From a virus, in the IMG/VR virus record IMGVR_UViG_3300005253_000042, positions 1 to 43,685 of that record: a stretch of 43,685 nt of DNA; one strand, 5' to 3'. The translations under genes were made by a program, and so were the position numbers. The notes under the pieces are model-generated. The model was given only the letters and a program-made list of their open reading frames with translations. It was not told the origin of the DNA and searched no databases. Shown piece by piece: positions 1,701 through 25,460 of this stretch. Every line of letters starts with the position of its first letter. Position 1 is the first letter of the stretch.

Positions 1701-1709
1701 GAGAGCGAC

Positions 1710-2422: not shown

Positions 2423-2438
2423 TATTCCTGCCTCCAAT

Positions 2439-5100: not shown

Positions 5101-5101
5101 G

Positions 5102-5627: not shown

Positions 5628-5895
5628 CGTTCCCTTCGGAGCCTTGATTGTCATTATCACTTCTGGCACTGGCTTCCTCCTCAGCGATACGTTCCTGTTC
5701 TATCTGTGCTTCCTCAACCTGAACAAACAATTCACCATCAGCACCATAGAATACAGGCACTCCATCTATTTCTGGAATATTCGGTATAACTATAGCTGTT
5801 GGGTTTTCACCCTTATGGTAGTACCGGTGCGCCCTGAGGTACGATACCAGCATACCTCTATGTACGGAATCCGCAATTACAAATGCCTTAGCCAT
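5593..5895 (-). CDS. Hypothetical protein with acidic low-complexity tail (100 aa)
   Basis: AGGAGG lies 5 nt before ATG 5895. Residues 1-60 look folded (KAFVIADSVHRGMLVSYLRA, then VIPNIPEIDGVPVFYGADGE); residues ~62-100 are a Glu/Asp/Asn/Ser-rich tail, probably disordered. The tail could mimic DNA or bind a basic partner, which is speculation. No family is recognised. Confidence 0.75.
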   Translation of the reverse strand: MAKAFVIADSVHRGMLVSYLRAHRYYHKGENPTAIVIPNIPEIDGVPVFYGADGELFVQVEEAQIEQERIAEEEASARSDNDNQGSEGNDEPNTSETVIQ

Positions 5896-6085
5896 TGTTG
5901 CCTCCTATAACTGGACTTTTCTCACATAGTGTAAATGTACCTACACCGCAGATGTAGACCACAACACCATCACCAATTTGTTTTAACCGTTCAAATAGTA
6001 ATTGGTCTTGAGTTCCTTCATGTATGATAGTAACCTGTACTTCTCTCTGTGGCAGTTTATTAGGTTTTTCAATAGCTATTCTCAT
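5888..6085 (-). CDS. Hypothetical protein (65 aa)
   Basis: Starts MRIAIEKPNKLPQREVQVTI with GGGAGG upstream. The C-terminal half is hydrophobic and beta-like (GDGVVVYICGVGTFTLCEK) with two cysteines. It starts 2 nt after the ERCC4 nuclease stop and overlaps the next gene by 8 nt. The function is unknown. Confidence 0.75.
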   Translation of the reverse strand: MRIAIEKPNKLPQREVQVTIIHEGTQDQLLFERLKQIGDGVVVYICGVGTFTLCEKSPVIGGNNG

Positions 6086-6087
6086 GG

Positions 6088-6813
6088 CTACCTCCCAATT
6101 GCTGTAAGTATTTTCCTTGCACTACTAAGTCCTAACATCTTACCACTTACCAAAGTAGCAGCTATCTCAGTGTCATCCTGATTAAACAGATTCCAAGGTG
6201 TTCCAAACCTCTCAATGAGAGCCTTGGCACGTTCCTCTCCAATACCAGCATTCTTTAATCCCATCAATGAATGGACATACGGGCTTTGTCCCTTAATAAC
6301 AATATGTTCCTTTACATATCTATTCAAGGTAGTATGTTCCAGCTTGAGTGAGTTGTTATACAGTGCAACAATTGCATACGCGGTGGTTTCCATATCCATG
6401 GTCTTAACCGATGTGATGCCAGCTTTATCCAACTGACTGAGCCATGCTTGGAACCCAGCATACGACACATGATACTCACGACCTGGCACTATGATATTTC
6501 CTTTCTTGGATTTCTGCCATGCCTGTGTGATAGAACCATGCATCTTGGGGACAGGTTTGCAATCACCTTCATACAGTAGCAGTGTCTCCTCGACACCACT
6601 CTCAATTTCTCTCCGTAGCTGAGTCTCAATCTTACCCATGCCGGAAAGTATCTCCCCAATTTGTTTGCGCTCTATTTGTATTCTATGTCCATCAACCGCT
6701 ACCCACATGTAGTCCGCGTATTTAGGATTAAGTGCGAGCCTGTGGGTAGGCACTACCTGCTTTATCAGTGCTTCAATGAGTTCAGGTTCATGGCTATCTA
6801 CTAGGATTGTCAT
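6088..6813 (-). CDS. ERCC4-type DNA nuclease with helix-hairpin-helix domain
   Basis: 241 residues from ATG 6813 (MTILVDSHEPELI), chosen over an upstream GTG because of the AGGCAG box and the small overlap with the preceding gene. The catalytic core shows VDSHE (5-9) and IERK (47-50) of the ERCC4/XPF/Mus81 nuclease fold. The C-terminal ~70 residues contain helix-hairpin-helix-like GLKNAGIGEERAKALIERFG, which binds branched DNA. Likely role: cutting forks, flaps or recombination intermediates in replication. Catalytic residues appear intact. Substrate preference is inferred from the family. Confidence 0.88.
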   Translation of the reverse strand: MTILVDSHEPELIEALIKQVVPTHRLALNPKYADYMWVAVDGHRIQIERKQIGEILSGMGKIETQLRREIESGVEETLLLYEGDCKPVPKMHGSITQAWQKSKKGNIIVPGREYHVSYAGFQAWLSQLDKAGITSVKTMDMETTAYAIVALYNNSLKLEHTTLNRYVKEHIVIKGQSPYVHSLMGLKNAGIGEERAKALIERFGTPWNLFNQDDTEIAATLVSGKMLGLSSARKILTAIGR

Positions 6814-7033
6814 TGCTATCTGCCTGACGTACCTCACCTGTTTTGTTGTTTACATGGTATATACCGATTAGATGTAGTCTGCTACGTATCCTTTCAAATA
6901 GGTCATGTCTTTGTGCAGCTATGATAGTACCTTGTTGAACAAGACTGTTCATAACCACACTAATACCAGCTTCACGTTCAGTAAGTTCTGCTAATTCCTT
7001 GAGTTCTGCTTTGGTTACTTTCGGTTTCTTCAT
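6794..7033 (-). CDS. Hypothetical protein, helical (79 aa)
   Basis: First gene after the structured leader and promoter at 7057-7207. AGGAG precedes ATG 7033. The N-terminus is Lys/Glu helical (KKPKVTKAELKELAELTERE), then LVQQGTIIAAQRHDLFERIR. It resembles a small DNA- or protein-binding helical protein but no family is recognised. It overlaps the nuclease start by 20 nt, suggesting coupled translation. Confidence 0.75.
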   Translation of the reverse strand: MKKPKVTKAELKELAELTEREAGISVVMNSLVQQGTIIAAQRHDLFERIRSRLHLIGIYHVNNKTGEVRQADSNDNPSR

Positions 7034-7056
7034 TGTATTCTCCTGCTGTATTCCCT

Positions 7057-7103
7057 GCTAGGCTCACTTTCGTCGCTAAAATAGCTACAATTTCGTGCCT
7101 AGC
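7057..7103 (-). other. Structured RNA hairpin in a 5' leader
   Basis: On the minus strand, GCTAGGCAC (7103-7095) pairs with GTGAGCCTAGC (7067-7057) with one bulged A. Between them lies a smaller hairpin, GCTA-TTT-TAGC. It sits between the probable promoter at 7179-7207 and ATG 7033, ending 23 nt before the start codon, and is not followed by a U-run. It may control translation, processing or stability. The 7104-7178 stretch otherwise holds nothing I recognise. Confidence 0.6.
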
Positions 7104-7178
7104 ACGCACTCAGATGAACCATGGATACACGTTTGATGTTGGGCTATACTTGTAGATAGTCGCTTCAGTAACGCATGT

Positions 7179-7207
7179 TCATTATGGCACTCAGAGCGTC
7201 TTGTCAA
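7179..7207 (-). promoter_or_regulatory. Probable sigma70-like promoter for the 7033-to-1773 block
   Basis: Minus-strand TTGACA (7207-7202) is followed after 17 nt by TAATGA (7184-7179), a weak -10; CATAAT is the alternative with a 15-nt gap. It lies in a 176-nt gene-free stretch just upstream of a block of co-directional genes, in the right orientation. Confidence 0.5.
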
Positions 7208-7209
7208 CA

Positions 7210-7371
7210 CTAGCTTTCCTTGTGTGTGGTAGTATGGAGAGAGGACTGGCATTTTGTGCAGATATGTTCAACAGTTACCAGTCGTGTGTATTTTTTTCCT
7301 TCGGTTGATGATGGAGACTTTACAGTACTAGTTGTTGTGATAACATGTTCCTGACATTTAGGACACCACAT
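7210..7371 (-). CDS. Small zinc-ribbon protein (53 aa)
   Basis: Starts MWCPKCQEHVITTTSTVKS at ATG 7371, chosen because AAGGAGAAT precedes it; the longer frame starts inside the upstream ATPase gene. Two knuckles, CPKC (3-6) and CTKC, form a classic C4 zinc ribbon. The stop is followed by the promoter region, so it ends a transcription block. Function beyond zinc binding is unknown. Confidence 0.75.
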   Translation of the reverse strand: MWCPKCQEHVITTTSTVKSPSSTEGKKYTRLVTVEHICTKCQSSLHTTTHKES

Positions 7372-7372
7372 G

Positions 7373-8209
7373 CTATTCTCCTTCCGCTGCCAGTCTGGAC
7401 ATTTCAACTAGCTTTGCTACTTTGTCATATGTAGGTATGCGAAGTTCTACCCCTACCAAATCAATGCACTCAGCTAGGTCAATGACTGCATGAGGCTTGA
7501 GTTTCATAACCGGTGTATCATCCTTACTAGTATCTATTTCCTTAAGGAATGTATGTACGATAACATCAGCACTGTCACCGAGTGTGTTCCATCCCTTGCG
7601 TTCCTTCTTGCCAGTCTTTTCTTCCTTAACCTCACCGCCACGTAGCACTGGTCCATACTGGTCAGTACTGTGATGAGTAATGATAAGGTTAGTGCGATTC
7701 GCCTTTGCTTGGTACATTACCCCACGCATGCGAATGTTTGGTTCACGATACTCAAAGGTGTTCAGTGATGTACGCAATTGTTGACCTGGTTTGAGGTTAC
7801 CATCGGCAGTGAATTGTAGTTCCTGTTTCTCCTGCAACACTGATGAAGAACATACTTCCCATAGCAGTGTGCCAGTATCAATGACAATGGTAGCAATCTC
7901 AGGGTCATTTACCAACTTCATGTAGTGAGAGAGGAACTGAAAGAACAACTCTTTCATACCTACTACTATCTTACTCGGTCGAACCAGGTTCAAATCAGAC
8001 ATGTCACCATACTGGAATGGCATAACATACCTGAGTTCATGTCCTTCATGCTCAGTGATAATATCCTTACTTTCAATCTCTGCTTTGAACCTATGCTTTG
8101 CTCTATCATAGCCACCGATGTCGAACTCCATATGAGCTAGTTTCTTAGGTGCAGTTAGAGCGAAGGTTGTCTTGCAGGTCTTATCGTCCCCCCAGATTCC
8201 GATTATCAT
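7373..8209 (-). CDS. RecA-fold ATPase, Sak4-like recombination protein
   Basis: 278 residues. A P-loop opens the protein (GDDKTCKT, residues 7-14) and a Walker B-like VIDT lies at 109-112, followed by an IITHH segment near 195, a plan seen in phage Sak4/AAA_24-type single-strand annealing ATPases. The usual Gly before the P-loop Lys is Cys here. It is next to a Cas4/RecB-like nuclease and a possible ssDNA-binding protein, the usual context of a phage recombination module. AAGGAT precedes ATG 8209. Family level is fairly secure; ssDNA annealing is inferred from the family. Confidence 0.8.
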   Translation of the reverse strand: MIIGIWGDDKTCKTTFALTAPKKLAHMEFDIGGYDRAKHRFKAEIESKDIITEHEGHELRYVMPFQYGDMSDLNLVRPSKIVVGMKELFFQFLSHYMKLVNDPEIATIVIDTGTLLWEVCSSSVLQEKQELQFTADGNLKPGQQLRTSLNTFEYREPNIRMRGVMYQAKANRTNLIITHHSTDQYGPVLRGGEVKEEKTGKKERKGWNTLGDSADVIVHTFLKEIDTSKDDTPVMKLKPHAVIDLAECIDLVGVELRIPTYDKVAKLVEMSRLAAEGE

Positions 8210-8424
8210 TTGTTATCCTTTTGTATGTTTATTAGCGCGCCAGAAATGCTCAACATAATGTCATTGAGTCCACTAAGTGACTCAGCTATGGACTGCAAAA
8301 TGTCATTGCGGTTATCCATGAACACAGGTATAGTACAGCTTTCAGATTCCTCAAGGAAGAATTGACATTCACTAGTGCATTTGTCCTTGATTCCATTTAC
8401 AGTTGTGAATCCGCACCTATCCAT
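8206..8424 (-). CDS. Cys-containing hypothetical protein (72 aa)
   Basis: Start at ATG 8424 (MDRCGFTTVNGIKDKCTSEC) with GGAGGAT upstream. Cysteines at 4, 16, 20 and ~31 could bind a metal; the C-terminal half is an amphipathic helix (DILQSIAESLSGLNDIMLSI), possibly for oligomerisation. ATGA overlap with the Sak4-like gene links its translation to that protein, so a recombination accessory role is possible. Confidence 0.7.
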   Translation of the reverse strand: MDRCGFTTVNGIKDKCTSECQFFLEESESCTIPVFMDNRNDILQSIAESLSGLNDIMLSISGALINIQKDNK

Positions 8425-8426
8425 TG

Positions 8427-9314
8427 CTATCCTCCAGCATGTAGTACACCCATTGGACAATATGCCGAAACATCACAATAGCTGGTGCATCGAGTGCCAC
8501 CCCAGTTTTCCTCATCATTGCATGGTTGATTGCATTCACCAGCACTAAGCGCAGCAAGTAGCATGGCAGTTTTTTCCTCGAAGAACTCCCTTACATCATC
8601 TTCATCTAGTTCTCGGACAGGTATCAGATACATCAGCTTCTCAACACCACGACCACGTGCAACCTGCAAGCCGCCATCCCTGACTGTGACCTGAATCTGC
8701 ATGCGACCTACCAGTAGCCCTTTATCCTTGAGCATGATTCGATAACGGTTCAATTGGAGTTCTGTCTCGGTGTTCTCAGCAGCTTCCGGCACAACATCGA
8801 ATGCGTTAACCATCTTGGGAGAACCAGCAGCACCCCAGTTACCACCACGTTTATACACGCCACCATCAGGGTCAGGCTTTTTACCAATAGAGACCACGCC
8901 CAATGCTTTGGCAACCTTGAAACTTCCCCATGTCTTGTAGTCGGTGAGTACATAGTTATACTCCTCATCAGGTTCAAGTAGGTCGAAGATGTCCCTATCT
9001 CCATCAGTGAGTGCAATTTCTGCGGGTAGTCCAAGTTCCTTTGCTGCATTTTCCAATGCCGAATGGTGTTGTGTCCCAAGCAGGGCAAATGCCATAGACT
9101 CAGGAGCTATGCCATACGGCTTGGTGATTCGTAGGAACTCATACATTGTACCATTGAGACATTGGGTGGTGCTAGGTATGCCATTCCATTCCCGCTGCTG
9201 TGTAACTGCTTTGATGGTAGGTGTAGTCAAACAGCGTTGCTCCATCCTACACTCACTCAAGCAGTTGGGTATTGGGGTTGTCCCACCATCAGGACAATTG
9301 AGCCAAGTCAACAT
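8427..9314 (-). CDS. Cas4/RecB-like PD-(D/E)XK nuclease with cysteine cluster
   Basis: 295 residues from ATG 9314 with AGGAGGCGG upstream; the longer frame enters the upstream hairpin and gene. The core motif reads YVLTDYKTW (D125, K127), with histidines at H83/H84 (GTQHHSALE) before it. Cysteines cluster at the N-terminus (C7, C18, C22, C28) and C-terminus (CNQPC, then CTSYC and C), as in Fe-S-containing Cas4/AddB-like exonucleases. Likely role: DNA end resection in phage recombination with the adjacent Sak4-like ATPase. No CRISPR array or other cas gene is present, so this is a phage enzyme, not an adaptation gene. Confidence 0.83.
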   Translation of the reverse strand: MLTWLNCPDGGTTPIPNCLSECRMEQRCLTTPTIKAVTQQREWNGIPSTTQCLNGTMYEFLRITKPYGIAPESMAFALLGTQHHSALENAAKELGLPAEIALTDGDRDIFDLLEPDEEYNYVLTDYKTWGSFKVAKALGVVSIGKKPDPDGGVYKRGGNWGAAGSPKMVNAFDVVPEAAENTETELQLNRYRIMLKDKGLLVGRMQIQVTVRDGGLQVARGRGVEKLMYLIPVRELDEDDVREFFEEKTAMLLAALSAGECNQPCNDEENWGGTRCTSYCDVSAYCPMGVLHAGG

Positions 9315-16463: not shown

Positions 16464-16634
16464 TTAGTGTGTACTCCTAAAGTGCATTGTCGCCTCAAAT
16501 TGACACTTCTGGTCATTCCATTTGATAGTACCCTTGATGAATAGTCTGGCCTCAACCCTAGCACTGACTTTGGTCCAGAATACTATCTCTTTGCATACTT
16601 CCTCGATGGTATTACCATACATATGTTTAATCAT
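16464..16634 (-). CDS. Small hypothetical protein (56 aa)
   Basis: Frame MIKHMYGNTIEEVCKEIVFW and onward with AAGGAGATAACC before ATG 16634. It fits exactly between neighbours with 1- and 3-nt gaps. A mixed helix/beta composition (RLFIKGTIKWNDQKCQFEAT). The family is unknown. Confidence 0.68.
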   Translation of the reverse strand: MIKHMYGNTIEEVCKEIVFWTKVSARVEARLFIKGTIKWNDQKCQFEATMHFRSTH

Positions 16635-16637
16635 TGG

Positions 16638-16982
16638 TTATCTCCTTGTCTTTGGTATCCTGAGTAGGAAGTCATGGATAGTGTCGAGTTGGGCACGGGC
16701 CTTAGCATCACTGTTTTTATGCCACTCCATGCCTTCGTCCATAATATCAAACTCATGGAAGTTTGCACCAGTACAGTAATATAACAGTCTTGTACAACCA
16801 GTTGAAGTGGCGAGTGGACAACTTGTGCAGTCGTCTGGATACCATTCACAGATACATTCACCGTCAGTCCGTGTGTAGTTACCTCTACTAACTACCTTGC
16901 TTGTATCAAACCTTTTCAGTAGTTGCTTGTAGTCCCGCTCATTCAGTGTTACCTTAATGTTTCCAATCTTTGCAGTTCTCAT
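16638..16982 (-). CDS. Cys-rich hypothetical protein (114 aa)
   Basis: Start at ATG 16982 (MRTAKIGNIKVTLNERDYKQ) with AAAGG upstream. A dense cysteine block in the middle (CICEWYPDDCTSCPLATSTG, then C and C) could hold two metals, and the C-terminal helix is basic. It may be a zinc-binding adaptor. No known family. Confidence 0.72.
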   Translation of the reverse strand: MRTAKIGNIKVTLNERDYKQLLKRFDTSKVVSRGNYTRTDGECICEWYPDDCTSCPLATSTGCTRLLYYCTGANFHEFDIMDEGMEWHKNSDAKARAQLDTIHDFLLRIPKTRR

Positions 16983-16983
16983 A

Positions 16984-17196
16984 TCATTTACCTTTCCCTC
17001 TGACATATCCTTGTAGCCATGCCTCAATTTCGATGAACAGGAACCAGCCGGAGATAGGTATGTCGCTAGGTCCATAAGATTGGTTGGCTGAGATTTGGTA
17101 TAGCCGTACCTGACCTGATGTGCGGCTGGATAGTGATAGGTTATGCTTATCTAGCTTAACCTTTATGTTTGCTTTCCGTTCTGCTACTGATTGCAT
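16984..17196 (-). CDS. Hypothetical protein (70 aa)
   Basis: AGAGGTAAATA precedes ATG 17196. Basic N-terminus (ERKANIKVKLDKHNLSLSSR), then beta-like VRLYQISANQSYG and an aromatic segment (ISGWFLFIEIEAWLQGYV). It stops 1 nt before the next start. Function unknown. The 42 nt upstream of it hold nothing recognisable. Confidence 0.7.
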   Translation of the reverse strand: MQSVAERKANIKVKLDKHNLSLSSRTSGQVRLYQISANQSYGPSDIPISGWFLFIEIEAWLQGYVRGKGK

Positions 17197-17238
17197 TATT
17201 TACCTCTAAACTCATAGATATACACGATGTTGGTACAA

Positions 17239-17565
17239 TTAATGTGCGGCTCTTTCGTAACCGTCACATACAGGTACATGTTCGACTATACCACTAGTAG
17301 ACATTGGAGTGACAGGTACTTTAGTTATGTGTGTGGCAGGCTTATCACAGTACCTACATTTGCCAAGGTCATAAGCATGTCCTTGCTCCTGTCTCACTGC
17401 ATCTTGGTCCTTGAAGTCCAACACTGAGCCATTGGTTACTGGGCATTGACTACTACGTGGTACTGTGCAATAGGTGTGTGAGTGTTCTATGGTATTGCCT
17501 TGCACTCCACCCCACTTGGGGTTGGTGATTCGTTGCCATTCGCAGGCATTGCAGTGGTCATTCAT
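17239..17565 (-). CDS. Zinc-binding hypothetical protein (108 aa)
   Basis: Two paired-cysteine sites: CNAC (5-8) near the start with C33 and C41 later, and CRYC (~70-73) with C100, plus several His. AAGGTGACACA precedes ATG 17565. It overlaps the preceding gene by 4 nt. The pattern suggests two small zinc modules. No family is recognised. Confidence 0.72.
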   Translation of the reverse strand: MNDHCNACEWQRITNPKWGGVQGNTIEHSHTYCTVPRSSQCPVTNGSVLDFKDQDAVRQEQGHAYDLGKCRYCDKPATHITKVPVTPMSTSGIVEHVPVCDGYERAAH

Positions 17566-17750
17566 TGTGTCACCTTCATTGATGCCAATAAAGTTTGGTG
17601 TATGTTATTCAACTGTACTCCAATCACTACCAATGCACAGGACATAGTGAGAAAGCCAGTTTCTACCATAAATCCACAATCCTTTGTGCATTTCAGACGC
17701 CTGAATGGTATGCGACTGCGTTTGATAGGACATATTCTACCTGTTTTCAT
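17562..17750 (-). CDS. Small basic Cys-containing protein (62 aa)
   Basis: Start at ATG 17750 (MKTGRICPIKRSRIPFRRLK) because it overlaps the stop of the 17747-17887 gene as ATGA and has AGGA 7 nt upstream. The N-terminal third is basic with cysteines at 7, 21 and 25; the middle is hydrophobic (FLTMSCALVVIGVQL). It could bind a metal or associate with membrane. Function unknown. Confidence 0.65.
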   Translation of the reverse strand: MKTGRICPIKRSRIPFRRLKCTKDCGFMVETGFLTMSCALVVIGVQLNNIHQTLLASMKVTQ

Positions 17751-17887
17751 AGTACCATCCTTATCCATATGTCCTGGCACCGTTCACGGGATGCCGCAAG
17801 ACGCAGCATATGTTTCTCATGTTTACCAATGCCACGTCCCCATGTCCATTCATGTTGCTTGGCTGATTGTAGTTTCCTCTTAGCCAT
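17747..17887 (-). CDS. Small basic protein (46 aa)
   Basis: Frame MAKRKLQSAKQHEWTWGRGI and onward; AAAGGATAGAACA precedes ATG 17887. Strongly basic with Trp/His, likely nucleic-acid-binding. ATGA overlap couples it to the next gene. The 167 nt upstream are gene-free apart from the hairpin structure at 17966-18030. Confidence 0.65.
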   Translation of the reverse strand: MAKRKLQSAKQHEWTWGRGIGKHEKHMLRLAASRERCQDIWIRMVL

Positions 17888-17965
17888 TGTTCTATCCTTT
17901 GCCCTATGGTCCGATGAGGTAGTGTGTCCTTTACATGTATTGTGCTCCTTAGGTTATCAGCCTGT

Positions 17966-18030
17966 TGGTGGGTAGCAGTCTATATTACACTACTTCAAGA
18001 GCTTGGTCGTTACCTTCCAAGTACCCACCA
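17966..18030. other. Nested inverted-repeat structure in a gene-free gap
   Basis: TGGTGGGTA (17966-17974) is perfectly complementary to TACCCACCA (18022-18030). Directly abutting it, CTTGG (18002-18006) pairs with CCAAG (18017-18021). The layout recalls an acceptor stem with one adjoining arm, but anticodon and second arms are missing, so it is not a normal tRNA. It fills the 17888-18054 gap, which has no convincing gene. Confidence 0.5.
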
Positions 18031-18054
18031 TCATTAGAATCAAGGTTGTCAGTC

Positions 18055-18222
18055 TTACCTACCATCCTTCTTCATCAAGCTGGTATGACATATGCACTTA
18101 CACCTAGCTGGTGTAACTAGTCGAGGTGCTGGGATATGACCAATACAGAGGTTGTGCTTGTCCATTATACAGTGTGAACTGACAACTGGTACAGATGCAC
18201 TTGGTTTGCTTACCTCTGTCAT
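18055..18222 (-). CDS. Small Cys/His-rich protein (55 aa)
   Basis: Starts MTEVSKPSASVPVVSSHCIM with GGAG 8-9 nt upstream of ATG 18222. Cysteines at 18, 26, 41, 43 and 45 with nearby His (RCKCICH) suggest metal binding. It starts 1 nt after the stop of the 18224 gene. An alternative frame also encodes CICTSC but lacks a start. Confidence 0.55.
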   Translation of the reverse strand: MTEVSKPSASVPVVSSHCIMDKHNLCIGHIPAPRLVTPARCKCICHTSLMKKDGR

Positions 18223-18223
18223 G

Positions 18224-18508
18224 CTACTTCTCCATCATCCTAAGTATCTCATCCTCATTAGCCAGTGCATCATCCTCTAGTGGTAACTCATCCATGTCCG
18301 CTGCTGATATGGGTAAGTTAGTTTCCTTAGTTATCTCTTCTAATGTAATATCAGGAGGCTTTACAGCTTCCGCAATATCATCGGTGTCAGTGATTACCTC
18401 AAGGTCAGGGTATTGCTTCCTTAGTTCCTCGACAATACCAGCGAGTCGTTTACTTGTCAATGCTTGTTCGCCACCAATGATAAGGACTCGTTGCTTCTGA
18501 GTGTCCAT
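18224..18508 (-). CDS. Hypothetical acidic protein (94 aa)
   Basis: First gene after the consensus promoter at 18554-18582. AGGAGA precedes ATG 18508. The N-terminus is nucleotide-fold-like (RVLIIGGEQALTSKRLAGIV, then LEVITD); the C-terminal half is very acidic (DMDELPLEDDALANEDEILR). Could be an early host-takeover protein by position. No family is recognised. Confidence 0.75.
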   Translation of the reverse strand: MDTQKQRVLIIGGEQALTSKRLAGIVEELRKQYPDLEVITDTDDIAEAVKPPDITLEEITKETNLPISAADMDELPLEDDALANEDEILRMMEK

Positions 18509-18553
18509 TGGTTGTTCTCTCCTATTGTTCCTGCCATATCAGGGCTATACTAT

Positions 18554-18582
18554 ATTATAACACATGGTATTGCCGTTGTCAA
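18554..18582 (-). promoter_or_regulatory. Consensus sigma70 promoter, leftward
   Basis: Minus-strand TTGACA (18582-18577), 17-nt spacer, TATAAT (18559-18554), a perfect consensus. It continues ATAGTATA, matching the promoter at 10336. It drives the long early block from 18508 leftward. Confidence 0.88.
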
Positions 18583-18637
18583 TAGCATTGCTTTGAGTGC
18601 TTGCTAGGAAACACGCCTATCAGTATGGAGTATTTTC

Positions 18638-18727
18638 CTACCATGTACCAACCTGCCGATGGATAGCTGAGTGTTGCCATATCTTCCAGTCTACCATTGC
18701 ATTATCCTCACGCCTATGTAATTGCAT
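18638..18727 (-). CDS. Possible micro-protein (29 aa)
   Basis: Frame MQLHRREDNAMVDWKIWQHS and onward, with CCAGGA just before ATG 18727. A second in-frame ATG, 30 nt later, has its own GAGGAT box. It lies between a hairpin downstream of the 18817 gene and a promoter, a stretch otherwise without a gene. Too short to judge by composition. Confidence 0.3.
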   Translation of the reverse strand: MQLHRREDNAMVDWKIWQHSAIHRQVGTW

Positions 18728-18758
18728 GTATCCTGGTTAGCATTCAATTCCTGGATAT

Positions 18759-18801
18759 GCATAAGCCTCCAGGACTGGCAACTAATCCCGGAGGCCAATG
18801 C
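18759..18801. terminator. Strong hairpin after the Ala/Lys-rich gene
   Basis: On the minus strand, GCCTCCGGGA pairs with TCCTGGAGGC over an 11-nt loop, extended by an outer GCAT/ATGC. It starts 16 nt past the stop of the 18817-19449 gene. No U-run follows in the minus direction, while T-rich sequence follows in the plus direction. It may terminate or protect the mRNA 3' end. Confidence 0.6.
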
Positions 18802-18816
18802 TTGTTTATTCTGTTC

Positions 18817-19449
18817 CTAGCTAACTGACTTGAGTTCCCCGCTTTCAACCACCCGGTCCTTGACAGCGGTCTTGATTTGCCACTGCTTGGAGTTGATGTT
18901 GGGTTCCTCGCAGTTCTCCAGCTTGGCCGATTCCTCAGCCGTGGCATACTTGGCAAATACCTCAGCCAATGACATTCCGTACATTGTTTTGGTCTTGCCA
19001 GCACCGCCGCCGACTCCAGCGCGTGTACCCTTGATTGCCGGAACTGCCAGCGATACGCTCTTGATTACCACTGGAGTGCCGGTAGCATCGGGCAATCCAC
19101 TGACGGTGAACGTGAAACCCTTGGCCTTGGTATCCGCCAGTGCCTTGACGATTTCCGCATTGCCAGCGATGATTGCGTAGATGGAAGTGGCTTTGCTGGC
19201 GCGAATTCCTGACAGTGCATCAGCTTCCGCTTTCAATGCTTCCGCTTTGGCCTTAGCAATGAGTCCCTTGGCCTTGGAAAGATTCCCCACTGCCGCCATG
19301 AGTGCATCAGTTCCGCCGTCGGCTCCTGATTCAACCAGCTTGCTGGCACTGACTACGGCTTGCGTGAGTTCCTCAATCGTGACTTCCACTTTGGCTGGAA
19401 CTGCCGCCTTGTCTGTTTCCTTGCCTTGCTTTGCTTCGCCTGTATCCAT
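18817..19449 (-). CDS. Ala/Lys-rich protein of unknown function (210 aa)
   Basis: Start at ATG 19449 (MDTGEAKQGKETDKAAVPAK) with AAAGGAGT upstream. Residues ~20-95 are long Ala/Glu/Lys helices (AKAKAEALKAEADALSGIRA), probably coiled coil; ~105-140 is a small beta segment (KGFTFTVSGLPDATGTPVVI); the C-terminal part is helical (MYGMSLAEVFAKYATAEESA). Codon use is visibly more GC-rich than neighbouring genes, suggesting high expression or separate origin. The transcript is flanked by a hammerhead ribozyme upstream and a hairpin downstream. A nucleoid- or virion-associated role is possible but unproven. Confidence 0.8.
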   Translation of the reverse strand: MDTGEAKQGKETDKAAVPAKVEVTIEELTQAVVSASKLVESGADGGTDALMAAVGNLSKAKGLIAKAKAEALKAEADALSGIRASKATSIYAIIAGNAEIVKALADTKAKGFTFTVSGLPDATGTPVVIKSVSLAVPAIKGTRAGVGGGAGKTKTMYGMSLAEVFAKYATAEESAKLENCEEPNINSKQWQIKTAVKDRVVESGELKSVS

Positions 19450-19519
19450 TATGTCTACTCCTTTATTTTTGATTCGGCCATTATGTGTTGCCACTCACAA
19501 CTGCCCAAGTCCTACTCTG

Positions 19520-19574
19520 AGACTCATCAGGATAGCCATCCAGCTATCGACGCCGCGTTACTGGCGTTTCGTCT
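19520..19574 (-). ncRNA. Type II hammerhead self-cleaving ribozyme
   Basis: Read 5'-3' on the minus strand: AGAC (stem II 3' strand, 19574-19571), GAA plus A15.1 (19570-19567), stem III ACGCC/GGCGT (19567-19563 with 19554-19550), cleavage C17 (19549), stem I GATAGC/GCTATC (19548-19543 with 19536-19531) with loop TGGATG, core CTGATGA (19530-19524), stem II 5' strand GTCT (19523-19520). Every conserved core base is present and GUC precedes the scissile bond, predicted between 19549 and 19548. Stem II is open, so it is type II, a class known in phages. It lies between the 19577 and 18817 genes and would split their common mRNA 99 nt before ATG 19449. Confidence 0.93.
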
Positions 19575-19576
19575 TG

Positions 19577-19717
19577 CTAAAGGGAATTGAACCATGCCTC
19601 AGTCTCCTCATTGCTACACAGTTCGATACGTTCATAGTCTCCATTCTCAAGTAGAATGTAGTACTTGCCATTGACCATGTGTAACACCTTGCCTGCCGCT
19701 TCTCCTAGATATGCCAT
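19577..19717 (-). CDS. Small hypothetical protein (46 aa)
   Basis: Frame MAYLGEAAGKVLHMVNGKYY and onward; AAGGAGGCGAGAC precedes ATG 19717. Beta-like centre (KYYILLENGDYERIELC) and acidic end. Its stop lies 3 nt from the first base of the hammerhead ribozyme, which would cleave its mRNA just after the gene. Function unknown. Confidence 0.7.
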   Translation of the reverse strand: MAYLGEAAGKVLHMVNGKYYILLENGDYERIELCSNEETEAWFNSL

Positions 19718-19744
19718 GTCTCGCCTCCTTGCCGCCTTTACAAT

Positions 19745-19753
19745 ATTCTAGCA
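19745..19753 (-). promoter_or_regulatory. Possible extended -10 promoter
   Basis: Minus-strand TGCTAGAAT is a TGn-extended -10 with five of six consensus bases, 28 nt upstream of ATG 19717. No good -35 is present. It would start the transcript carrying the ribozyme. Confidence 0.35.
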
Positions 19754-19779
19754 CACTTTCCATGCCAGTGCTCATTTGG

Positions 19780-19957
19780 TTGACATAACGAAGTAACGAA
19801 AAGGTTACAGTTTTCTTGCACCATCTAACATCATGTGTGCGGAGGAGTACATTGTTAGTTGACATAATACTCCTGCCAACATTACTTGACATAACAACCA
19901 GCCATTGCCAGCTTGACATAATGTATGTGCCAATGCTCTCCAATCTAGTTGACATAA
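19780..19957. repeat. Array of five TTGACATAA repeats (candidate iterons or operators)
   Basis: Identical TTGACATAA copies on the plus strand start at 19780, 19859, 19886, 19913 and 19949; spacings are 79, 27, 27 and 36. Each is followed by C or T and by unrelated sequence, and none has a -10 at the right distance, so they are not five promoters. Such arrays are typical of replication-initiator or regulator binding sites. The 19754-19944 stretch has no convincing gene. Confidence 0.75.
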
Positions 19958-20097
19958 TATCTCATTGCAGGAGCGCACATAGCAGTGTCCCGGCAGCAAG
20001 TGTCATGTGCAGGGCAGCAAGTGATAGGTACGGGGGAAACAATGTTGAGATGGATGTTAAGATTTCTATAGCTGGTCTCAGAAATTAACCGCCACAT
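19945..20097 (-). CDS. Doubtful Cys-rich reading frame (50 aa)
   Basis: Frame MWRLISETSYRNLNIHLNIV and onward; AGGAG lies 9 nt before ATG 20097. The middle is Cys-rich (CCPAHDTCCRDTAMC), but that part is produced by an 11-bp DNA direct repeat, GGCAGCAAGTG at 19992-20002 and 20013-20023, and its end overlaps a TTGACATAA copy. The region may be noncoding control DNA instead. Confidence 0.3.
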   Translation of the reverse strand: MWRLISETSYRNLNIHLNIVSPVPITCCPAHDTCCRDTAMCAPAMRYYVN

Positions 20098-20120
20098 GAA
20101 AATTTGCTCCTATATTCCTA

Positions 20121-20276
20121 CTACTGGTCAATATCTATTGAGTCAACTATCTTTACTCCGGAACCTGTCGGTATTAATGCTAAGAAGATGTTTGGTATGG
20201 CTCTTGCCACACTCGCTATAACCTCGGATATGGAACTCATATATTCTTGTTCAACCTCGATAAAAATGATTTTCAT
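20121..20276 (-). CDS. Small hypothetical protein (51 aa)
   Basis: Frame MKIIFIEVEQEYMSSISEVI and onward, with AGGAGTAGAACA before ATG 20276. A hydrophobic centre (AIPNIFLALIPTGSGVKIVD) may be a folded core or weak membrane segment. It starts 10 nt after the previous stop. No family is recognised. Confidence 0.68.
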   Translation of the reverse strand: MKIIFIEVEQEYMSSISEVIASVARAIPNIFLALIPTGSGVKIVDSIDIDQ

Positions 20277-20286
20277 TGTTCTACTC

Positions 20287-20442
20287 CTATGCTCCTTTAT
20301 ACCTTAGGTCAGCTAAACGGAGTTGTTCCTTGTAGCTCTGAGCTTGTGACTGTTGAAGGCGCATGCAATCTTCCACAGCTTCTATCAATTCCTCCTTCGA
20401 GCATTCTGATAGTGGTTTACCTCTATAAGTAGTTTCAAGCAT
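20287..20442 (-). CDS. Small helical protein (51 aa)
   Basis: Frame MLETTYRGKPLSECSKEELI and onward, with AAGGAGTGAATA before ATG 20442. The S-x-E/C-S-K-E-E-L-I-E-A pattern and long Gln/Arg helix (EDCMRLQQSQAQSYKEQLRL) resemble small phage early proteins with one helix-turn element. It overlaps the upstream gene by 8 nt. Confidence 0.7.
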   Translation of the reverse strand: MLETTYRGKPLSECSKEELIEAVEDCMRLQQSQAQSYKEQLRLADLRYKGA

Positions 20443-20581
20443 TATTCACTCCTTGCTCTTTCAATTCCTTATGAAAACATTCCAGACAATGTTTTCTAAT
20501 TCCCATACCTGGTGATTCATATAGGTATGTGAACCTGCGACATCGAGGGCAGGGTGATTTTTCCATGGCATCATTTTTCAT
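20435..20581 (-). CDS. Small zinc-ribbon protein (48 aa)
   Basis: CPRC (11-14) and CLEC (32-35) form a C4 zinc ribbon with aromatic residues between (FTYLYESPGMGIRKH). ATGA overlap with the upstream gene. Likely nucleic-acid or protein adaptor. Function unknown. Confidence 0.75.
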   Translation of the reverse strand: MKNDAMEKSPCPRCRRFTYLYESPGMGIRKHCLECFHKELKEQGVNNA

Positions 20582-20808
20582 AGTGGTGAGCTTTTCTGCG
20601 CTGAACCTATAGTCAATGCGAACTGGCGCTCCTCCTCACAATAAACACAGCGGAACATTACGCGATTATCCCATCGCTCTCTCCAGTAGTGTGCATTAGG
20701 TGTATTGGGGTTTTCTTCACATACCCAATCCAAAGATGCTACATAGCTTTGGAAGGAACGTCGTGAACGCAGGTTACCATATGGGAGACTTATATTAGCT
20801 TTTGACAT
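20578..20808 (-). CDS. Hypothetical protein with CxxC motif (76 aa)
   Basis: AGGAGTTGTTCT precedes ATG 20808. Basic/aromatic N-terminus (NLRSRRSFQSYVASLDWVC), then WRERWDNRVMFRCVYCEEER with a CxxC pair and one earlier Cys. A zinc-ribbon-like fold is possible. Function unknown. Confidence 0.72.
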   Translation of the reverse strand: MSKANISLPYGNLRSRRSFQSYVASLDWVCEENPNTPNAHYWRERWDNRVMFRCVYCEEERQFALTIGSAQKSSPL

Positions 20809-20866
20809 AGAACAACTCCTGACATATCATGCATTGGGAACCATATGCTTTTGCATCTTCTTCGAT

Positions 20867-21007
20867 TTATTCCTTAACAGCTTTGAGTGTAGCTACGACT
20901 CCCATGTTAAATGCTTCATGGTGAGAAATAGGTTTACCAGTATAAACATTCTTAACTGTAACCGCTGCTTGGTTAAATGGATTATCTACATCAACTTGAC
21001 GAGCCAT
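20867..21007 (-). CDS. Small protein (46 aa), possibly truncated by an in-frame stop
   Basis: Frame MARQVDVDNPFNQAAVTVKN and onward, GGAGG 12 nt upstream. It stops at TAA (20869-20867), but the same frame stays open for 23 further codons (IEEDAKAYGSQCMICQELFY, then VKS) to a second TAA at 20795. The extension has protein-like composition and a CxxC pair like its neighbours. Nonsense mutation, sequencing error or readthrough could explain this; no independent start for the second part is seen. Confidence 0.6.
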   Translation of the reverse strand: MARQVDVDNPFNQAAVTVKNVYTGKPISHHEAFNMGVVATLKAVKE

Positions 21008-21438
21008 GATTTTGGGATACCTCCAACATCTAGTATTTTCGCAATTAGCTCAGATTGTTCCTTCTCAATCATTGCAATGTCCAACGCGGTGTCTGGTGCA
21101 TCACTTAATCCACGTAGTTTATAATCCAGATAATTCTTACGTCTGATGAGTTTCAACCTAGCAACCTTCTGTTCCACATTCAATGCACTTGCCAATTTGT
21201 TTGGTCCTCGCTTTCCACCCCTTGCATGATACGGGTGAGTGTTTAGATAATCCATGGCTTGGTCCATCCAACACTGCATGTGATAATAGAGTTTGCTATT
21301 CCATGTGCGCTTTGCATCATTGCCTTTGTTCCAAAAGAATACCGTTATCATTGGAGTGGCGAGTGTAATATCCTTCTTACACCATTTACACGATGCTTTC
21401 TTCCTGCACCAGGCTGCTGTTACATTAGGTGGCGGCAT
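20986..21438 (-). CDS. Cys-rich hypothetical protein (150 aa)
   Basis: AGGAGCTACAAATAA precedes ATG 21438. N-terminal CRKKASCKWCKKDI and a downstream H-x2-C (YYHMQC) make a treble-clef/HNH-like zinc site; the C-terminal half is basic helices (EQKVARLKLIRRKNYLDYKL). DNA binding is likely. HNH nuclease is not supported, since no catalytic H-N-H pattern is visible. Confidence 0.75.
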   Translation of the reverse strand: MPPPNVTAAWCRKKASCKWCKKDITLATPMITVFFWNKGNDAKRTWNSKLYYHMQCWMDQAMDYLNTHPYHARGGKRGPNKLASALNVEQKVARLKLIRRKNYLDYKLRGLSDAPDTALDIAMIEKEQSELIAKILDVGGIPKSWLVKLM

Positions 21439-21654
21439 TTATTTGTAGCTCCTAGGGAAACTACGTGCATTGAAGTGTTGGCGTATTCTAGCTAATGGTA
21501 TAGCGGTTTTTACATTTTCGATTGTTCCAAATAAACTGGCAGGTATTGTAGAGTTCATAAGTAGACGTAAATTAGCGTAGTATCCAATTCTTTCTTTCAT
21601 AGCTAGTTTATATGAAGGAGTAGCTTTGTTCCATTTCTCAGTCCATTTATCCAT
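21439..21654 (-). CDS. Small basic protein (71 aa)
   Basis: AGGAGAT precedes ATG 21654. Lys/Arg/Tyr-rich helical protein (WTEKWNKATPSYKLAMKERI; PLARIRQHFNARSFPRSYK). No cysteines. Probably nucleic-acid-binding by charge. It abuts its neighbours with 0-1 nt overlap. Confidence 0.72.
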   Translation of the reverse strand: MDKWTEKWNKATPSYKLAMKERIGYYANLRLLMNSTIPASLFGTIENVKTAIPLARIRQHFNARSFPRSYK

Positions 21655-21992
21655 TAGTGAGTATCTCCTGCTGCCTTTCTCATGGCTACCTGACCTTTCC
21701 AGAATGTTTGTTCCTCAGTCATTGTTGTAGGACCGATACATTTAGGTTTGTTTACAGTGATGGTTCCAAGTGTGTTATGTTTTTCTTGCATATATGACCA
21801 GTCATTAATCTTCCTGCAATGTTGAACTATTGATAGTGGGAATGTTATTCCACAAAGGCATTCATATAGTGGTTTATTATACGCTGGATAATGCACAGCA
21901 CAGTTTATCTTTAGGTTGAGTATAGCTCCTAACTCATCCTCTTCCAACTGTTGTCCATTACCTTGCACGTAATAACCCCATGTGCCTGTCAT
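21654..21992 (-). CDS. Hypothetical protein (112 aa)
   Basis: Start at ATG 21992 (MTGTWGYYVQGNGQQLEEDE), overlapping the preceding TGA. Three cysteines near the middle (CAVHYPAYNKPLYECLCG) and an H-C pair may bind metal. The C-terminus is helical (EEQTFWKGQVAMRKAAGDTH). No family is recognised. Confidence 0.72.
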   Translation of the reverse strand: MTGTWGYYVQGNGQQLEEDELGAILNLKINCAVHYPAYNKPLYECLCGITFPLSIVQHCRKINDWSYMQEKHNTLGTITVNKPKCIGPTTMTEEQTFWKGQVAMRKAAGDTH

Positions 21993-22408
21993 TGCCACTG
22001 TTCTCCATCCCAGGTTTTATTATACTTCTCCTTCATTACGAAGGCCAGCCAGAGTTGTTCCAGACTCTCACAGTATCCACATGGATTCTCTGGTGCTGTC
22101 CACCAATTCCAAAGTGCTTCAATCAGGGCAAAGCACTTGCCATATCCTTGCCCCATCATCTCCTGCAACTGGTCTTGGCGGGGGAGCCAGATGGCAATTG
22201 CCACTAGACCTCTACCACCGTATTCGGAATTACACCCAGCACAATGCAGGGAAGTCTCACCGTCCTCCGCGATGTATTGACTATCCCAATCTTCGTAGTT
22301 AGAAATGTAGTCCCAACCAAACCCACTGGGTTTCAAGTCACGTTTCATTTGTCCCTGTATTTCAGGACAGTTACACATCTTGATGTAAGTCTTGCTGGTG
22401 TCTGACAT
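21989..22408 (-). CDS. Zinc-binding hypothetical protein, first gene of leftward arm (139 aa)
   Basis: Start at ATG 22408 (MSDTSKTYIKMCNCPEIQGQ) with AGGAGCAGCAAA upstream. Three cysteine sites: CNC near residue 12, CAGC (~56-59) and CGYC (~110-113), with Trp-rich segments. It is the first gene after the leftward promoter at 22442-22471, so very early expression is expected. Function unknown. Confidence 0.75.
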   Translation of the reverse strand: MSDTSKTYIKMCNCPEIQGQMKRDLKPSGFGWDYISNYEDWDSQYIAEDGETSLHCAGCNSEYGGRGLVAIAIWLPRQDQLQEMMGQGYGKCFALIEALWNWWTAPENPCGYCESLEQLWLAFVMKEKYNKTWDGEQWQ

Positions 22409-22441
22409 TTTGCTGCTCCTAATATCTGTTTGTCTAATACT

Positions 22442-22471
22442 ATTATAACATACTATAGTATTACATGTCAA
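22442..22471 (-). promoter_or_regulatory. Leftward sigma70 promoter at the divergence point
   Basis: Minus-strand TTGACA (22471-22466), 18-nt spacer, TATAAT (22447-22442), followed by AGTATTAG. The spacer holds the 12-bp palindrome ATACTATAGTAT, a possible operator. The whole block is also the third copy of the dispersed element at 14123 and 32646. Confidence 0.82.
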
Positions 22472-22491
22472 ATATTACTAGAACATTGCTC

Positions 22492-22521
22492 TTGACAATG
22501 ACTGTCACAGCCTGATAAACT
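22492..22521 (+). promoter_or_regulatory. Rightward promoter for the packaging genes
   Basis: TTGACA (22492-22497), 18-nt gap, TAAACT (22516-22521). The GATAAACTA box is identical to that of the promoter at 32705-32733. It lies 17 nt before ATG 22539 and divergent from the leftward promoter. Confidence 0.7.
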
Positions 22522-22538
22522 ATAGACAGGAGGCCATA

Positions 22539-23075
22539 ATGACTGAAACTGGTGTTGTGGACCCCAACTCCACTGTAGACCCTAACTCCGCCGAAGCCAT
22601 TGCTATGTCACTCGTTCCCATGTTTATGGACGGCACTAAGAAAGCTGTTTACCTGGGATACATCATTGCTCACTTTTCCATCACCGAGGCATTAGAACTC
22701 GCTAATACTTCCATGCGTACACTTCTTCGGTGGCGTATGGATGATTTGGACTTCGACTCCATTGAGAAGTTATGCAAAACTGATTTGCGGAAGAAACTCT
22801 CCAAAGAACTATCTGACATTGAGTTTTCCCGTAACTTCAAGCTATTCATGGCTAAGGATTTCTCAGTGCTATTCAAGGATGCTAAGGATGAAGAACTCAC
22901 CGATGATGAAAAGAAATACCTAGTATCCATTCGCAAGTACTACACGCCACAGAACCTTGCTATCATTAAACAGCTTACTGGGGATAAAGATGCTAATCCT
23001 GCAGGGTTTAATTTCTCCCAGCTAACCATGACCCTGAAACGGACACAGGAGTCCATCACAATAAGTGCGGAGTAA
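22539..23075 (+). CDS. Terminase small subunit candidate (178 aa)
   Basis: AGGAGGCCATA precedes ATG 22539. Residues ~33-68 read as a helix-turn-helix (KKAVYLGYIIAHFSITEALE, then ANTSMRTLLRWRMDD), as in small terminase DNA-binding domains, followed by charged helices and a C-terminal region. First gene of the rightward arm and four small genes before the large terminase. The role is inferred from layout and position; no unique motif exists for this subunit. Confidence 0.7.
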   Translation: MTETGVVDPNSTVDPNSAEAIAMSLVPMFMDGTKKAVYLGYIIAHFSITEALELANTSMRTLLRWRMDDLDFDSIEKLCKTDLRKKLSKELSDIEFSRNFKLFMAKDFSVLFKDAKDEELTDDEKKYLVSIRKYYTPQNLAIIKQLTGDKDANPAGFNFSQLTMTLKRTQESITISAE

Positions 23076-23088
23076 TAAGGAGAAAGTT

Positions 23089-23310
23089 GTGTCACTCTTA
23101 AAGCGTACAAGGAAGCAACCACCAGAACTCAACGGCAAAACACCACAATGGTTTCGAGAGTGGCACAACCAACATTATCTACCCGCTATGAGTAGAGTTA
23201 GTACCAACCGTAAGCTAATATGGATACTACTCGCTTCCTCATTAGCTGGAGCAGTAACTGGGGATAACATAGATGCATTGGATAAGATTGTACGTCTATT
23301 AGGTGGATAA
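23089..23310 (+). CDS. Small membrane-associated protein (73 aa)
   Basis: Start GTG 23089 with AAGGAGAAAGTT upstream. Basic N-terminus (KRTRKQPPELNGKTPQWFRE), then one hydrophobic helix (LIWILLASSLAGAVTG, ~43-58) and a short tail. Position among packaging genes is unusual for a membrane protein; a holin-like role cannot be excluded. Confidence 0.65.
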   Translation: MSLLKRTRKQPPELNGKTPQWFREWHNQHYLPAMSRVSTNRKLIWILLASSLAGAVTGDNIDALDKIVRLLGG

Positions 23311-23435
23311 TGGCTAGAGGTGTTAGGGCAACAACCAAGCAACGAGTTGTTGGCAGGCATAACCTGTCAAAGGGTCCTATTACCCGTGTCGGTTTGCGTG
23401 GACAGAAGTATTCTCCAAGGAAGCCAAAGCAATGA
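23310..23435 (+). CDS. Small highly basic protein (41 aa)
   Basis: ATG 23310 overlaps the preceding TAA. The sequence MARGVRATTKQRVVGRHNLS and onward carries 13 Arg/Lys and is probably disordered and nucleic-acid-binding. ATGA overlap with the next gene. Family unknown. Confidence 0.62.
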   Translation: MARGVRATTKQRVVGRHNLSKGPITRVGLRGQKYSPRKPKQ

Positions 23436-23575
23436 GTGTATTTAAGTGTGATTTGGTAGTAGTAATAAAGACCTGTAAGAGTTGTCCAAAATATAGGACT
23501 ATCGAATGCACAGCTATCTATAAGGACCAACATCGTGGCATGGTGGTACTCCCAGCCATAAACGGTAGAGGTTGA
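23432..23575 (+). CDS. Small Cys-rich protein (47 aa)
   Basis: Frame MSVFKCDLVVVIKTCKSCPK and onward, with cysteines at 6, 15, 18 and 26, a plausible single zinc site. ATGA overlap with the preceding gene; ends 5 nt before the next start. Function unknown. Confidence 0.65.
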   Translation: MSVFKCDLVVVIKTCKSCPKYRTIECTAIYKDQHRGMVVLPAINGRG

Positions 23576-23580
23576 TACGA

Positions 23581-23865
23581 ATGGTTTACCAAGGACGTAG
23601 AGCAGGACCAGGTGCATTTAATAATTCGCCAGCGAATACTGCCTGTCCAGGTAGTGGTGGTCAGAGCTTGACTGAGTTTCTCTATCCCATGGGTAAATCT
23701 ATAAGACGGAGGCGGCACTTAATATGTGACCATGCACATGTCTCCTGCAAGGTTGAGCGGTGCTTACATCAGACAGACCATGATTGGGTAGTTCTTAAGG
23801 GCATACAGAATTGTAGTAATCCCCAGTGTTGGGGCGTAAAGGTTAAGTGCACAGAGGATAAATAG
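23581..23865 (+). CDS. Cys/His-rich protein upstream of terminase (94 aa)
   Basis: ATG 23581 with GAGG 9 nt upstream. Six cysteines plus His (HLICDHAHVSCKVERC; NCSNPQCWGVKVKC) suggest two zinc sites. Its stop overlaps the terminase GTG by one base, so the two are translationally coupled. Packaging accessory role is possible by context. Confidence 0.7.
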   Translation: MVYQGRRAGPGAFNNSPANTACPGSGGQSLTEFLYPMGKSIRRRRHLICDHAHVSCKVERCLHQTDHDWVVLKGIQNCSNPQCWGVKVKCTEDK

Positions 23866-25460
23866 TGACCACTGAAACCGAAAGAGCATTTATCGACCTC
23901 ATATCCGATGATAGGAAGTTCATCGAGAATCTCTTTGTGGTCGAAAATAAAGCGCGAGAACGTATACCATTCAAGTATAATGCTATCCAGAACGCGGCAT
24001 ATGATTCCGCAACCAACTTTGATATTACCGTCAAGCCAAGTCAGGTAGGCTTCTCCACAGAAATAATTGCCAGGAGACAAAAATCTGCATTAACTGTTCC
24101 TGGCACTAATGTCGTTTTGATTGCTTACGAGGACTTTATCACCGAACGTCTATTAAGCAAGGTGACATTCAATTATAACCACCTGCGCTCGTTAGGTATT
24201 CCCGGCTTCCCAGAGATTCACCACGATAGCACCTATGAAAAAACCTTCATCTTCAAGAACCCTGATACTCACGAAGAAACAAAGTCCAGCATTTACATTG
24301 CCAGTGCCAGGTCATTTGTCGCTGGTCGTGCTGAGACTATTCACCACCTAATCTGTGATGAGTTTGCTTTCTGGCCGACCATTGCTACTGAGCGTATCCT
24401 CGCACCAGCTATGGCTAGGATACCACCTGGTGGCACTTGTGATATTCTTTCCACACCTAATGGTGAGGATAATGATTTTTGTGGAATGTTTCGATTAGCT
24501 AAGGAAGGCAATTCCGTATTCAAGCCTCACTTCTATCCTTGGTTCATGCATGAAGAATATACATTTGGTGTTAACGATATCCGTGCTGGTTACATTAAGG
24601 ATGGCGATAAACCAATCTTTGACCTCACCGAGGATGAAGCTAGATTAGTAATGAACTTTTCCTTAACATATGACCAGGTTCGTTGGCGTAGGTTTACAAT
24701 CTTCCAAAATGAGAGCCTTCGTAGGAATGGTAATACTCGCACCCTATTTGCACAGGAATTTCCAGAGGATGATGTCTCTTGTTTCCTATCTACAGGAGAT
24801 ATGTATTATGATGTTGAGTTAGTGGACTTACATGCTAAGAATTGTTATCCTGCTCCATCACATAGAGAAGGATTACATATCTGGTATGAGCCGGAAGATG
24901 GTAAGCAGTATATGGTTTGCATTGACCCTGGTCAAGCCAAGATAACTAAAACAGCTATTGGTGTCATAACCATTGAACATGATGAATATGGTAATTCATA
25001 TCCCAAATGGTGTGCTAGGGATGCTGGATGGTATCTACCAGATTTGGGTATGGATAAAGCTGAATCCATAGCTAAGTATTATAACAATGCTGAGATTTCC
25101 TGGGAGGCTAATTCGCAAGGACTTGCTTATGCTCCTCTCGCACAGCGGTACAAGAATGTCTACTACCGGCAAGATGTTGTTAGTGGTAGAACTACTACTG
25201 TTCCTGGGTGGCTTACTACTGGTGGTCGTACTGGCACTAAGGATTATATGTTCCATCAAATACATAAATCATTACGCACTGCGGTAATCCATGATATTGA
25301 ACTTGTTGCGGAAATGCGTAATATACGTGTGTCAGGGGATAAAGTAATTTCAGTAGGAGCCGATGATATCCACGATTGCTACGCGATTGGGTTAGTATGC
25401 AGAGACCCATTCCCAATTCGTAGAGGCTTTGGTGGTAGCTCCGGTTTTAAGTGGAGGTAA
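23865..25460 (+). CDS. Terminase large subunit (packaging ATPase/nuclease)
   Basis: 531 residues from GTG 23865 with GAGG 8 nt upstream. Motor domain: Walker A-like KPSQVGFST (57-65), Walker B LICDE (162-166), coupling motif STPNG (196-200). Nuclease domain: VCIDPG (~353) and the final DDIHD (~500), with an intervening Glu-bearing segment (WEANSQG). The complex cuts concatemeric DNA and drives it through the portal into the prohead. Length and motif order are standard. Immediately followed by the portal gene. Confidence 0.96.
   Translation: MTTETERAFIDLISDDRKFIENLFVVENKARERIPFKYNAIQNAAYDSATNFDITVKPSQVGFSTEIIARRQKSALTVPGTNVVLIAYEDFITERLLSKVTFNYNHLRSLGIPGFPEIHHDSTYEKTFIFKNPDTHEETKSSIYIASARSFVAGRAETIHHLICDEFAFWPTIATERILAPAMARIPPGGTCDILSTPNGEDNDFCGMFRLAKEGNSVFKPHFYPWFMHEEYTFGVNDIRAGYIKDGDKPIFDLTEDEARLVMNFSLTYDQVRWRRFTIFQNESLRRNGNTRTLFAQEFPEDDVSCFLSTGDMYYDVELVDLHAKNCYPAPSHREGLHIWYEPEDGKQYMVCIDPGQAKITKTAIGVITIEHDEYGNSYPKWCARDAGWYLPDLGMDKAESIAKYYNNAEISWEANSQGLAYAPLAQRYKNVYYRQDVVSGRTTTVPGWLTTGGRTGTKDYMFHQIHKSLRTAVIHDIELVAEMRNIRVSGDKVISVGADDIHDCYAIGLVCRDPFPIRRGFGGSSGFKWR

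Follow-up and report, generated by a model that had tools for sequence, protein, structure and literature searches.

The minus strand of a 43,685-base IMG/VR virus record, analysed in full and referred to here as the window, carries a type II hammerhead ribozyme at positions 19574–19520, between an ORF of 46 amino acids and a gene for a 210-residue protein, p210. The motif is confirmed as real by its sequence, a motif scan and a covariance model (R1). We consider it likely, with a probability of about 80%, that this hammerhead cleaves itself, cuts off the RNA of an added ORF and gives p210 a structured 5' end.

A complete type II hammerhead on the minus strand

Read 5' to 3' on the minus strand, the element is AGAC-GAA-ACGCC-AGTAACGC-GGCGT-C-GATAGC-TGGATG-GCTATC-CTGATGA-GTCT. 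Stem II, which is open, pairs AGAC with GTCT over 4 bp (19574–19571/19523–19520) and is followed by the GAA of the core (G12–A14, 19570–19568). The closed stem III pairs ACGCC with GGCGT over 5 bp (19567–19563/19554–19550) across an 8-nt loop, AGTAACGC, and keeps the A15.1–U16.1 pair that type II requires. Next come C17 (19549) and the closed stem I, GATAGC/GCTATC, of 6 bp (19548–19543/19536–19531), after which CUGAUGA supplies C3–A9 (19530–19524). Stem I gains an extra closing pair from U19542 and G19537, which leaves a GGAU loop (6 nt if the U.G pair is disregarded). All hammerhead core bases are present (C3 U4 G5 A6 N7 G8 A9 and G12 A13 A14, with N7 = U and H17 = C), the 15 canonical stem pairs are all intact, 16 positions are paired, and the triplet for cleavage is GUC. 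From hammerhead anatomy, we take the predicted cut to lie between C17 (19549) and G1.1 (19548). A sequence-only reading of this DNA had described a complete type II hammerhead with a full core, stems of 4, 5 and 6 bp and a GUC triplet, cut at 19549/19548; the letters and a full-length covariance match bear out the description, and the cut position agrees with ours. When the window was scanned for hammerheads of types I, II and III, no second one was found.

Statistical support for the motif

A covariance model built from 51 phage hammerheads, with the window element excluded, matched the element over its full length with 51.2 bits and, by a rough calibration, an E-value of 5.7e-12; this was the sole match in the window. 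As the 51 hammerheads had been picked for intact stems, their pair statistics characterise the set and are no proof of the structure. None of 3,194 dinucleotide-shuffled windows gave a type II match with stems as long; the shuffles yielded 97 looser matches, the best of which paired 15 positions, one fewer than the 16 of the real element. Both the shuffles and the E-value uphold the earlier judgement that the whole pattern is very unlikely to have arisen by chance.

The covariance search proposed with that judgement gave a divided outcome. The Rfam models stayed below threshold: at gathering there was no type II match, RF02276 (Hammerhead_II) not reaching its 37 bits, and at E ≤ 10 there was no Hammerhead_II and only a partial Hammerhead_3 of 13.7 bits, whereas the model from the 51 phage hammerheads recovered the element. 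Rfam proved insensitive to this kind of hammerhead, giving 3 matches in 13 control loci rich in them. Unconstrained folding did not rank the ribozyme fold first and preferred other pairings for stem II. The fold constrained to the ribozyme lies 1.8 kcal/mol above the minimum free energy, the 51 comparable phage hammerheads spanning 0–7 kcal/mol, and free folding by itself appears uninformative here.

A common phage subgroup without the pseudoknot

As a sample for comparison, we took the matches of a degenerate core pattern scanned against IMG/VR, which comprised at least 209 type II candidates (at least 191 of them unique) from 112 of 120 stretches. Central to the published type II consensus is a pseudoknot in which loop I pairs with the 3' tail, found in the majority of those described (PMC3088659). 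A pseudoknot of this kind is predicted for about 40% of hammerheads overall and is no strict requirement. In the window element the best pairing of this kind has 2–3 bp, short of the 4 or more taken as the criterion, and most of the 209 listed phage candidates likewise have fewer than 4 bp. Lacking a 4-bp pseudoknot, the window element may cleave more slowly or may rest on non-canonical loop contacts.

A loop I of the form URNNUG or URNUG, in which a U.G pair closes stem I and leaves 3–4 nt unpaired, was found in 107 of the 191 unique listed hammerheads, and in 104 of these 107 an A directly precedes stem II. The window element belongs to this subgroup, with U[GGAU]G as loop I and A19575 (minus strand) directly 5' of stem II. 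Since the loop I letters and the A lie outside the search pattern, they lend the window element independent support. The A is also kept in 53 of 60 listed hammerheads that are docked at a stop codon and in which it cannot belong to that codon. A19575 is likely a partner of loop I in a tertiary contact, and a non-canonical loop contact may replace the pseudoknot in the phage subgroup. As Rfam misses them, this common subgroup of phage hammerheads is under-annotated.

In all 41 listed loci with multiple hammerheads, the copies lie on one strand, mostly spaced about one gene apart, and among the listed matches whole records hold up to 11 type II hammerheads. Multi-copy IMG/VR records include L038 (11 copies), L002 (9), L012 and L025 (8 each) and L079 (6); in records with 6–11 copies these sat on a single strand wherever checked, again about one gene apart.

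Position between two genes of the leftward region

The virus is a tailed phage, and its leftward transcript would carry the ribozyme. Its minus-strand arm encodes DNA polymerase A, a DNA methyltransferase and AAA proteins, and its plus-strand arm encodes the terminase and the major head protein; the gene content suggests that the leftward region is early. This region is headed by a perfect consensus match to a sigma-70-like promoter (TTGACA-18-TATAAT with TG; 22442–22471, minus strand). Another such promoter, also a perfect match (TTGACA-17-TATAAT with TG), stands at 18554–18582 (minus strand), just downstream of p210. Upstream of the 46-aa ORF there is a consensus match to an extended −10 promoter-like site, TGCTAGAAT (19745–19753, minus strand), and five iteron-like TTATGTCAA repeats at 19780–19957 (minus strand), related to repeats that precede p210 in other phages. 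The TTATGTCAA repeats span about 180 bp and are a possible origin or operator.

The ribozyme begins 2 nt after the TAG (19579–19577) of the 46-aa ORF (19577–19717, minus strand), for which no family match was found, and 70 nt separate the end of the ribozyme from the ATG of p210 (18817–19449, minus strand), which has an AAAGGAG ribosome site and orthologues in six related phages. The element is therefore intercistronic; the term leader, applied to it earlier, does not fit the whole and suits its 3' half alone, which would become a leader after cleavage. The accompanying proposal that it splits the message of two early-region genes is consistent with the gene order and with the replication genes on the same strand. 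Searches with p210 gave no convincing match in Pfam, PHROG or PDB and no relatives in bacterial or archaeal genomes, known phage records had no DNA match near the ribozyme site, and the window terminase is about 25% identical to those of named phages. The phage lineage is undescribed, and a known ribozyme class is found at a new locus.

The place just after a stop codon is typical of phage hammerheads. With genes called by simple ORF scans, 79% of 169 unique listed hammerheads had a same-strand stop within 10 nt upstream, compared with 5% of random positions on the same contigs, and docking held for 72 of 93 listed cases (77%) when one hammerhead was taken per contig and flanks were dissimilar. 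Of the same 169, 85% had a start with a ribosome site no more than 50 nt downstream (random, 20%), 92% had a start codon with a ribosome site no more than 100 nt away (random, 38%), and 15% fell inside an ORF of at least 100 aa, compared with 63% of random positions. In the literature searched, which covered few subscription papers, we found no statement of docking at stop codons; published work (PMC3088659) describes hammerheads that lie between genes of prophages and contains the idea that they cut long transcripts into gene-length pieces. Docking across many phage hammerheads offers a testable link between translation and self-cleavage.

These distances bear on a possible, if somewhat unlikely, alternative, that the active ribozyme mainly serves the 46-aa ORF as a compact maker and stabiliser of its 3' end, replacing a terminator, and that any effect on p210 is incidental. 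Listed phage type II hammerheads do lie closer to the upstream stop (median 2 nt) than to the downstream start (median 24 nt), and no terminator-like site was found on the minus strand in 16500–23900. However, close packing after the stop may be plain genome economy, because the downstream side needs space for a ribosome site, and 85% also have a start with a ribosome site no more than 50 nt downstream.

The p210 site in related phages

A search with the terminase retrieved 23 contigs, most of them 46–59% identical; none of them contained a hammerhead, whatever its type, whose core was sound. Weak model matches in contigs L123, L133 and G036 were rejected, their cores being truncated or broken. 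Orthologues of p210 were present in six distinct phages (seven contigs) at 31–41% protein identity, and the hammerhead is absent from all six orthologous sites. Absence of the core from conserved relatives had been named beforehand as evidence against the ribozyme; the absence was indeed found, and given the divergence of these phages (31–41% protein identity) it is read as a lineage-specific gain and not as a false call. The comparison suggests that the ribozyme may be a recent local gain. No close relatives were found through p210, the presumed portal or the AAA protein. The only near relative found, reached through the DNA polymerase, is a contig of 7,934 bp (L122; 91%), with 81–92% DNA identity to window positions 1–8497 over segments; it stops short of the ribozyme site, and no near relative covering that site was found.

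The region ahead of p210 in the relatives combines, in varying ways, a hairpin whose loop reads AGURGYAAC, a promoter-like site and TTATGTNAA repeats. In L127, L128 and L151, the promoter, the hairpin and p210 follow in direct succession with no insert, whereas the window has the 46-aa ORF and the ribozyme between the repeat and promoter region and the p210 hairpin (19479–19502, minus strand). The hairpins of the window, L127, L128, L132 and L151 share the invariant loop, align without gaps and change on both sides in 6 of 9 pairs, a covariation that comes from five sequences only and from a structure read from those same sequences. This hairpin, which had no Rfam match, lies at about 6577–6601 (minus strand) in L127, at about 324–348 (plus strand) in L128 and upstream of p210 in L132 and L151. 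In L128 and L132, 16 nt separate the end of the −10 element from the hairpin loop. There, the leader hairpin begins a few bases from where transcription is expected to start, which makes a 5'-end hairpin the family arrangement. The locus provides a comparison with and without the insert: the downstream gene and leader hairpin are the same, and L127, L128 and L151 have the promoter with nothing inserted.

L132 has a small ORF with flanking 30-nt inverted repeats between the hairpin and p210 (2061–2293), and similar ORFs occur in L133 (4854–5287 and 5312–5611) and in L125/L126 (L125, 3339–3624). The flanking repeats measure 16–31 nt with the core GTYTATCACTCCTAGG, and each arm is able to fold as its own hairpin; these units are possibly gene cassettes or RNA processing signals. 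On the simplest reading, different small genes would have entered the p210 site in different lineages, and the newcomer in the window would have come with, or been given, a ribozyme.

The same observations could be taken to mean that the hammerhead came in with an acquired gene cassette, as a passenger that is active and has no selected effect in the window phage. It is missing from the six orthologous sites, it is a single copy in the window genome, and the unrelated inverted-repeat-flanked ORFs at the p210 site of L125, L132 and L133 indicate a place that attracts insertions. Drift, however, would soon break a ribozyme with no selected effect, and here the core bases and the 15 canonical stem pairs are intact; we regard this explanation as decidedly unlikely. 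That the motif was assembled by chance, or is an inactive relic that does not work as a ribozyme, is hardly credible, as the Rfam shortfall and the differing minimum-energy fold that might speak for it are outweighed by the independent model and the shuffles, the subgroup loop letters, the typical position and the poor recovery by Rfam in the control loci.

A model for the locus

We therefore favour removal of the added ORF from the p210 message, a reading under which the two genes would be co-transcribed, the ribozyme active and insertion the direction of change. As insert-free relatives have the promoter directly before the hairpin and the window has an ORF and a ribozyme in between, the ribozyme most likely trims the added RNA. 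Once a ribosome had finished the 46-aa ORF, the RNA behind it would be free to pair, and the ribozyme would fold and cleave after C17 (19549), leaving the ORF intact. For the upstream message, the new 3' end would be the stem III hairpin, some 28 nt beyond the stop codon. Hammerhead self-cleavage yields a 2',3'-cyclic phosphate and a 5'-OH; the p210 message would carry this 5'-OH at its new end, 100 nt upstream of the ATG, with the stem I hairpin first and the conserved leader hairpin and the ribosome site after it. Cleavage would in this way recreate a 5'-end hairpin similar to the family arrangement and might influence mRNA stability.

At termination, a ribosome shields about the next ten bases beyond the stop codon. 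Because these include the first strand of stem II and the GAA of the core, cleavage should wait for translation of the 46-aa ORF to end, and such a delay could also be a by-product of tight packing. Going further, and quite speculatively, stop-docked ribozymes might allow a small gene to be inserted before a resident gene without changing the mRNA, acting as a translation-gated 'insertion neutraliser' that travels with cassettes, an idea we consider doubtful. If true, a ribosome on the new ORF would keep the ribozyme open, and its departure would permit the cleavage that restores the structured 5' end of the resident gene. The locus bears on what hammerheads do in phages. Gene-flanking prophage hammerheads self-cleave in vitro, and the one from Agrobacterium does so in E. 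coli as well (PMC3088659).

Comparison with known systems

Like other type II hammerheads (RF02276; Perreault et al, 2011, PMC3088659), the window element has a complete core, with stem II open and stems I and III closed, a GUC triplet and an intergenic place in a phage genome. Unlike the published consensus, it has no loop I/3'-tail pseudoknot of 4 bp or more and is missed by the Rfam model. With the non-pseudoknotted phage hammerheads from IMG/VR (set A1) it shares a U.G-closed stem I of 7 positions with a URNNUG loop, a 4-bp stem II, the preceding A and the place just after a stop codon. It differs from them in a tail that starts with C, where theirs usually starts with A, and in a short stem III with an 8-nt loop; many of those phages have 2–11 copies on one strand, whereas the window genome has a single copy. 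The HHphage hammerhead of haloviruses HF1 and HF2 is unlike the window element in being a core variant, in its archaeal host and in having a helicase as the downstream gene; like the window element, it lies ahead of an early viral gene, and an in vivo 5' end has been reported near its cleavage site (PMC3088659).
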